Virus record (IMG/VR): IMGVR_UViG_3300009788_001696
Span: 1 to 44,659 of that record
Length of the DNA stretch: 44,659 nucleotides
Origin: a virus
Direction: 5' to 3' (one strand)
Shown: positions 27,911 to 29,208 of the stretch, piece after piece
How positions within the stretch are numbered: the first letter of the stretch is position 1
Layout: each line of letters starts with the position of its first letter
Notes under the pieces: model-generated
What the model was told of the DNA's origin: nothing
Seen by the model: only the letters and a program-made list of their open reading frames with translations
The model's database searches: none
Position numbers and translations under genes: made by a program

Positions 27911-28492
27911 TTATGCGGTGATGACTTGCAGATTCCAGGGAACGTGAAGCCCCCATGCCGTGCTGCCGCGTAACGGCACGATGTGATCAACATGATGCGG
28001 CACGCCCGTCTCATTGGAGAGACGGTATGCCAACTCATACAGGGCCAAAATCTCGCGCTTGAGTTTGTCGCTCAACCACTGCGGAGACTGTCGGATCTTC
28101 CGAGCCTGATACATCTTGTAATCCGCTGTGCATCTTGCGCGATTCCGCTTGCGCCATTCTGCTCGGTACTCTTGTTCGCTCGCTAAGTAGCTCCCATCTA
28201 GCCGCTTTTCTCTCTTGGCTTCCCGAGAGCGTCTTTTCGCGCGTTCTCGGAACGCTGCGTCGTTGGCATACCTACGGTTTTGCGAACCGCGCTGTTCTGC
28301 GAGTACTTGTTCTCGGCAACGAATCCGCCTCTCAGCAGTGTAACGGCGATCCTCTTCTTTGACGACGACCGACGCGCGCCGCTCGCGATTTGCAATTCGC
28401 CTACAAGCTAAACACCTGTTGTCGCGCGCGCTGCGTTCTGCAACGTGTCCGAATCTGCACGGCTCAATGCTGCTGACTTTGCGGCGTGGCAT
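27911..28492 (-). CDS. HNH endonuclease, C-terminal motif cut by a TAA stop
   Basis: A 193-residue basic protein with an N-terminal CRFGH...CLAC zinc-finger-like motif (about 12-31), a long Arg-rich region and a C-terminal HNH signature (HHVDHIVPLRGSTAWGLHVP, then WNLQVITA). The frame stops at TAA, but the following codons in frame encode EKLRKGS, which aligns to the ENLRKSA that follows in the sister HNH gene at 31816. The last conserved segment was therefore probably removed by a nonsense change. The ATG directly abuts the TAA of the frameshifted chaperone. The element lies exactly between chaperone and tape measure. Confidence 0.85.
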   Translation of the reverse strand: MPRRKVSSIEPCRFGHVAERSARDNRCLACRRIANRERRASVVVKEEDRRYTAERRIRCREQVLAEQRGSQNRRYANDAAFRERAKRRSREAKREKRLDGSYLASEQEYRAEWRKRNRARCTADYKMYQARKIRQSPQWLSDKLKREILALYELAYRLSNETGVPHHVDHIVPLRGSTAWGLHVPWNLQVITA

Positions 28493-29208
28493 TTACTTCC
28501 TCGGCCTCGGTCTTGGCTTGGTGTGCTTGTGGAGTGATTTGCGGATCGCGTCGTAAAAGAACTTGATCTGATGGTTCTTCAAATCGAACGGTGAAGGGAG
28601 CGACGTATATTCCAAACAGATTTGTAGGAACATCTCACCGTAAACGCTTTCGATAGTATGGCGCGGGCTTCCGCTTTCTCTGTCCCTTGGTAGCCGCTCG
28701 TCGCTCCCGACGCGTACGAGGTACGTGGCTACCTCTAGGCCAAAAAAAGCGTCACGATCGCTTGGCAGACTTTCAGATCGCGGCCGTGCATGTTTTCGAA
28801 CGTCACCGCGCTGGTCTGAGTCATCTCGGCCATCGAGGCGAACATCTTCGAAATGTCGTGTCCTTTCTTTTTCTGGTCCATGGCCGAGTAGGTCGAGCCC
28901 TTCGGCTCGTGAAAGATGATCGGATCCTTGCTAGCTCCCATCACCGGCGTATAGATCGGCTCGCCTTCCGCGTTGACAACGAGGCGGCCCTTGCGGATTG
29001 CGCGACTCATTACGCGCTCGGCCGATTTGAACGCTTGGAGGTCCTCGTCGTCCATGCCTTCCGGCTTGACGTCGAGATCCATTTTTTCGATGAACCGATC
29101 GAAGTCGGCTTGCGCGGCGTCGCGCGCGACCTTTTCTTTTTCTACCGCCTTGGCGGCTTCCTTCGACTGCGCGTCTCCCTCGCCCGAGTCGATGCCCGTA
29201 TTTTGCAT
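28493..29208 (-). CDS. Tail assembly chaperone, -1 frameshift product (G-T / gp41-42 type)
   Basis: Joined product: 0 frame 29208-28741, then -1 frame 28741-28493, 238 residues. The first 156 residues end in VTLFL. The -1 extension begins GLEVATYLVRVGSDERLPRD and ends in HQIKFFYDAIRKSLHKHTK followed by a Pro/Arg tail. A helical FYDxIR segment is typical of the C-terminal part of such chaperones, which bind the tape measure during tail assembly. The slip site is C TTT TTT TGG, read as T TTT TTG in frame, just before the 0-frame TAG. The extension fills an otherwise empty 240-base gap, ending directly next to the HNH ATG. Confidence 0.85.
28735..29208 (-). CDS. Tail assembly chaperone, short (0-frame) product
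   Basis: A 157-residue acidic, helical protein (MQNTGIDSGEGDAQSKEAAK..., FDRFIEKMDLDVKPEGMDDE...) located between tail tube and tape measure. This is the position of gpE (P2), gp41 (Mu) or gpG (lambda), whose main product is the unshifted form. It ends at TAG 28737-28735, two codons after the slippery site. In related phages both products are needed in a fixed ratio. Confidence 0.85.
   Translation of the reverse strand: MQNTGIDSGEGDAQSKEAAKAVEKEKVARDAAQADFDRFIEKMDLDVKPEGMDDEDLQAFKSAERVMSRAIRKGRLVVNAEGEPIYTPVMGASKDPIIFHEPKGSTYSAMDQKKKGHDISKMFASMAEMTQTSAVTFENMHGRDLKVCQAIVTLFLA
28741..28747 (-). other. Programmed -1 ribosomal frameshift site
   Basis: A run of seven T on the minus strand gives the heptamer T TTT TTG in the zero frame, fitting X XXY YYZ. 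Slippage by one base places the ribosome on GGC CTA GAG, and the frame stays open for 82 codons to TAA 28495-28493. A stem-loop stimulating element may lie in the following Gly/Arg-coding GC-rich stretch; I did not fold it. Confidence 0.8.

Follow-up and report, generated by a model that had tools for sequence, protein, structure and literature searches.

In the contractile-tailed phage P2, the gene pair E/E+E' lies between the tube and tape measure genes and is expressed through a -1 shift, and the slip site of phage lambda is G GGA AAG. The model for the roles of the short and the long chaperone is provided by lambda gpG/gpGT (PMC5009743, available part), and that source also mentions the efficiency of the P2 frameshift. 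The tail chaperone shift of phage Mu is -2, according to the portions available of PMC5009743, PMC4378225 and PMC2628397, which makes Mu the exception to the original prediction for the locus described here, in which lambda, Mu and P2 were all said to use exactly such a -1 shift. For phage Adele and the TAC-N/TAC-NC proteins of Pakpunavirus / Vandenendeviridae, a -1 shift has been proposed on a conserved GTTTTT poly-T signal, with a TAC extension that is open in all 56 alleles (PMC12846349, available part).

The window analysed here is the whole of a 44,659-base virus record, in which the chaperone ORF and its extension both lie on the minus strand (Table 1). The reading frames and the heptamer are observed directly: the short ORF ends with ...GTG ACG CTT TTT TTG GCC TAG, so that a single sense codon, GCC, separates the heptamer T TTT TTG from the TAG, and the initial codon of the extension frame, GGC, shares the last base of the heptamer. 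The 82-codon extension encodes the peptide GLEVATY...HQIKFFYDAIRKSLHKHTKPRPRPRK. The coordinates, lengths and peptide given in the original prediction for a 157-residue ORF ending soon after T TTT TTG were correct, on the minus strand, and the window's reading frames confirmed that a -1 shift opens the 82-codon extension.

Judged from sequence, the locus very probably employs -1 programmed ribosomal frameshifting to produce a G/GT-like chaperone pair. Two tail assembly chaperones would be made from one start codon. Most ribosomes would stop at the TAG and release the 157-residue short form. On the others, a minority, the tRNAs for Phe (UUU) and Leu (UUG) that occupy U UUU UUG would move back by one base, so that translation would run past the TAG for another 82 residues and yield a protein of ~238 aa. 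If the pair works as lambda gpG/gpGT does, the tape measure protein may be coated by the short form and tail tube subunits recruited by the extension, with both chaperone forms departing ahead of tail completion. That the shift takes place on the ribosome, how often it does so and what either product does are in each case what we infer from the observed features.

Table 1. Features of the window and of related loci; coordinates that carry a locus label (L) refer to that relative, all others to the window.
Feature	Coordinates	Strand	Details
Tail sheath gene	31129-29645	minus	494 aa; phrog_165, 6.9e-82
Tail tube protein gene	29612-29229	minus	127 aa; phrog_4699, 1.9e-34
Short tail assembly chaperone ORF	29208-28735	minus	157 aa + TAG (28737-28735); putative G-like product
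Slippery heptamer T TTT TTG	28747-28741	minus	in frame; XXXYYYZ scan and synonymous conservation peak
-1 frame extension, putative T-like domain	28741-28493	minus	82 codons + TAA (28495-28493)
Candidate stimulatory stem, 7 bp	28733-28689	minus	arms 28733-28727 and 28695-28689; begins 7 nt past slip site
HNH / endonuclease VII-like gene	28492-27911	minus	193 aa; phrog_26577, 5.5e-16; phrog_1035 (endonuclease VII), 4.1e-8
Tape measure protein gene	27885-25714	minus	TTG start, 723 aa; PF10145, 6.4e-46
Pre-stop sequence of the two relatives with no recognisable slip motif	L055 2082-2108; L063 1715-1741		GCC TTA TTA ATG GAT TAG
Leftward NinH / HTH-like block	L007 2087-3282; L008 2258-3272; L010 2198-3284; L016 2147-3282; L017 1986-2936		

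The window carries a Mu-type contractile tail module, with the gene order tail sheath, tail tube, short ORF, extension, HNH-like gene and tape measure, followed 3' of the tape measure gene by a DNA-circulation-type baseplate gene and a gpP-like hub gene. The chaperone thus sits, as had been proposed, after the tail tube gene and before the tape measure gene, but is not directly adjacent to the latter: the gap from the extension stop to the tape measure gene is 607 nt and is occupied by the HNH-like gene. Likewise, the extension's TAA does immediately adjoin an ATG (28492), but this ATG, taken as support in the original prediction, is not the tape measure start and opens the inserted HNH-like gene. 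Across relatives, with tape measure starts extrapolated from the alignment, the tape measure gene begins -19 to +36 nt from the extension stop at 113 of 114 loci. The HNH-like gene that separates extension and tape measure in the window is an insertion and no part of the frameshift. Its own relatives (30-49% identity) were found at other places in the tail module in 20 other loci, several of which are the same contig, and this scatter of positions among related phages suggests a mobile intergenic endonuclease. The ATG at 28492 is preceded by GAGGAAG, which may be the former ribosome binding site of the tape measure gene.

Because the tape measure start adjoins the extension stop, it was also considered whether translation of the tape measure gene might be coupled to the frameshift. 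This idea was rejected: of 79 tape measure starts, 71% have a predicted Shine-Dalgarno pairing at least as strong as -6 kcal/mol, compared with 85% of 67 for the sheath gene and 11% of 415 for random stretches, so that such coupling is not needed. Gene blocks at further positions were seen in some relatives. In the Vibrio relatives L007, L008, L010, L016 and L017, a leftward block (NinH / HTH-like and other genes) splits the tail operon between tube and chaperone, and in Pseudoalteromonas phage PY6 (L006 5558-6367) three leftward hypothetical genes separate the tape measure gene from the DNA circulation genes.

Gene position, fold and conservation of the extension make a tail assembly chaperone by far the best reading of the short ORF. 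At the sequence level, it matches phrog_4648 (E 6.7e-27), a family annotated as of unknown function, and in the window it scores 16.4 bits against PF10109 Phage_TAC_7 ('E, or 41 or 14'), for which the curated cutoff is 25; 27 of 58 members of the chaperone family match PF10109 at E <= 0.01, the best at 8.7e-7. The predicted structure has a mean pLDDT of 88.5, and in Foldseek comparisons of this model three unnamed viral proteins rank ahead of the named chaperones, which comprise a predicted 'tail assembly chaperone' (probability 1.00, E 0.008) and a 'tape measure chaperone' (probability 1.00, E 0.012). A Foldseek search of the same model against the PDB returned nothing at E <= 0.001, and neither the short ORF nor the extension gave a significant sequence match among solved structures. 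The AlphaFold model of the extension, of fair confidence (mean pLDDT 84.2), is a small domain containing two helices, for which sequence and structure comparisons yielded no clear known relative: its best Z against solved structures is a middling 3.9, and one of 78 members of the extension family matches PHROGs, weakly.

The window has a GC content of 61%. Past the stop of 61 of the 212 window frames considered (stop-to-stop, >=100 codons) there is a -1 run of at least 81 codons, so openness of the -1 frame is by itself unremarkable. Six of these 212 frames carry an in-frame XXXYYYZ heptamer no more than 30 nt from their stop, and the chaperone ORF alone combines such a heptamer with a long -1 run. 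The main weight of the evidence falls firmly on the relatives, and not on the window's open frame.

A search with the short ORF matched 22 phage records, 11 of which were used, together with 56 viral-contig loci; a further four phage loci were reached via the tape measure protein and 51 loci via the extension. Some of these are one contig retrieved twice, and unique sequences (for example, 83 unique loci) were therefore counted. Of the 67 loci that the short ORF retrieved, five end ahead of its stop, and all 62 that keep the stop continue, in the -1 frame, into a homologous extension. The same holds for 4 of 4 loci found via the tape measure protein and for 51 of 51 found via the extension, the latter set being biased by construction. 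Such a split could also come from an indel, introduced during sequencing or assembly, in the T run of what is really one continuous ORF; T runs are error-prone, and the window is an IMG/VR virus record. An error of this kind is refuted, unless shared by all, by the -1 relation, which holds at all 117 other loci where the short ORF's stop is kept, isolates and sites with short T runs among them, and by the lack of any locus in which short ORF and extension are fused in one frame; we give it a negligible probability. A scan of genome contigs produced 97 pattern matches, none of which was a prophage relative.

Conservation of both the frame and the protein is seen directly in these relatives. All 83 unique loci whose extension is complete have an extension frame free of stops, whereas the other two frames contain on average 3.9 (the short ORF's own stop included) and 3.7; thus, no frame break of the sort that the original prediction had set against itself was encountered. 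Purifying selection on the extension in the relatives is evident from a median dN/dS of 0.086 in its frame versus 1.42 and 2.14 in the shifted frames, calculated from 157 pairs at 70-97% identity (138, 150 and 134 of them usable, respectively), pairs that lie outside the window, to which no relative is close enough.

The joined gene is annotated at the chaperone locus of none of 13 annotated relatives, and the word 'frameshift' is absent from the available portions of PMC10132091 and PMC5371815, two papers on relatives. Four of the 13 annotations list the 3' part of the extension as a separate hypothetical protein, in keeping with a separate gene that is translated by re-initiation past the TAG, and a GTG or TTG is present near the junction in some relatives. 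Set against this, the window has an overlapping second ORF, in another frame, with no ATG, GTG or TTG near the junction; its earliest extension-frame start is an ATG 104 nt past the short ORF stop, and conserved residues early in the extension precede that codon. In 43 of 84 unique loci there is likewise no start codon between the opening of the frame and 30 nt past the stop, and synonymous conservation of the slip codons also speaks against a separate gene. Since no start codon lies near the window junction, re-initiation is extremely improbable, and translation of the extension by a -1 frameshift remains the preferred reading.

The slip codons themselves are conserved, as is directly observed across 83 loci. 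In the short ORF, the final CTT, TTT and TTG codons show an excess of synonymous identity of 0.73, 0.50 and 0.62, respectively; the scored columns as a whole average 0.06 (sd 0.11), and the peak places the signal exactly at the proposed slip site. The slippery motif of the window, T TTT TTG, falls within the overlap of the two frames. In the relative L120, the -1 frame is open for just 13 nt ahead of the short ORF stop, and its shift must therefore occur on T TTT TTA. Together with gene position, fold and conservation of the -1 relation, the synonymous peak upholds the earlier identification of a -1 frameshifted tail assembly chaperone.

Loss of the heptamer in relatives, named in the original prediction as a refutation, did occur in part: T_TTT_TTN is present in 57 of 83 unique loci and missing from the other 26, in all of which the extension frame is nonetheless unbroken. 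T_TTT is followed by another codon (ATG, CTG, ATT, CTT, TCG or GCG) in 14 of the 83 loci, and T_TTA then ATG occurs in 10; in L057, L101, L107 and L116 the T_TTT that was counted lies further upstream, with its codon starting 18 nt ahead of the stop. In the remaining two, L055 and L063, no slip motif could be recognised, and the -1 extension is retained. This variation bears on transcriptional slippage, in which RNA polymerase would add or drop a U on the T7 run, leaving part of the mRNAs with the two frames fused. Poly-T runs can slip during transcription (PMC3711429, available part), and besides the run at the slip site (28748-28742) only two other T7 runs occur in the whole window, both strands counted. 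The available text of PMC3711429, however, quotes transcriptional realignment for T runs longer than 8, as against 7 here, and in 26 of the 83 unique relatives the T run at the site is no longer than six, with the -1 extension still kept. Because the frame is kept in relatives with such short T runs, transcriptional slippage is very unlikely, and a shift on the ribosome is favoured.

For the most part, the variation of the slip site falls within known rules. In E. coli reporters with a stimulator, U_UUU tetramers and, weakly, U_UUA tetramers drive -1 shifts, and these tetramers fit most of the non-heptamer relatives; the study, on Z_ZZN tetramer and X_XXZ_ZZN heptamer motifs, deals with reporters, insertion sequences and enterobacterial genes and not with the phage family here (PMC4066793, available part). 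Annotated phage frameshifts with other motifs have been reported by PRFect (PMC10885494, available part). The odd loci are the 12 with T_TTA or with no motif. Switches between the heptamer and other sites number at least 11 on the joined-protein tree, whose branches are long and whose forks are often weak, and L060 and L064, at 93% identity over 300 nt, have CTG in one where the other has TTG. It is conceivable, and we suggest it only tentatively, that the slip signal has been repeatedly rewritten within one family while the -1 extension was retained. If so, the family would be a natural mutational series for finding other drivers of the shift; and if the T_TTA and motif-less loci truly shift, they would represent -1 sites at or beyond the edge of the usual rules. 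In any case, slip-site variants within one homologous family are ready test sequences for the looseness of -1 sites.

Downstream of the slip site there is a slight excess of RNA stability. Relative to shuffled sequences, the stretch from -3 to +72 around the stop has a mean z of -1.06 over 82 loci, 28% of which fall below -2, compared with mean z values of -0.18 to -0.60 and 6-7% below -2 for four control stretches. In the window, a 7-bp stem may act as a stimulator and is weakly supported, with a z of about -2.0 (53 nt), -2.3 (63 nt), -0.9 (43 nt) and -1.7 (75 and 93 nt) depending on the length folded. A pseudoknot or hairpin common to the relatives was rejected on comparison by eye, the structures varying from locus to locus.

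A frameshifted chaperone is a textbook trick of tailed phages and is not fundamentally new; at this locus it is well supported by many relatives, and the annotation can be corrected for a group of contractile-tailed phages and their uncultured relatives.

Compared with the described systems, the locus resembles P2 E/E+E' in its organisation. With the Mu gp41 region it shares the Mu-type tail module, matches of family members to PF10109 and the downstream DNA circulation and gpP-like genes. The Mu shift is -2 whereas that of the window family is -1, and an extension in the +1 frame, as a Mu-type shift would require, was found neither in the window nor in any of the 117 other loci that keep the stop. 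A contractile tail and a poly-T -1 site are shared with Pakpunavirus / Vandenendeviridae, which are another phage group; in the window family CTTTTTTTGG is the most frequent of several sites. The likeness to lambda gpG/gpGT, drawn by analogy, lies in the -1 frameshift chaperone pair; in contrast to lambda, the window phage is contractile-tailed and its T TTT TTG sits three nt from the stop. As far as sequence can tell, the window displays every testable feature of the lambda G/GT-type class.
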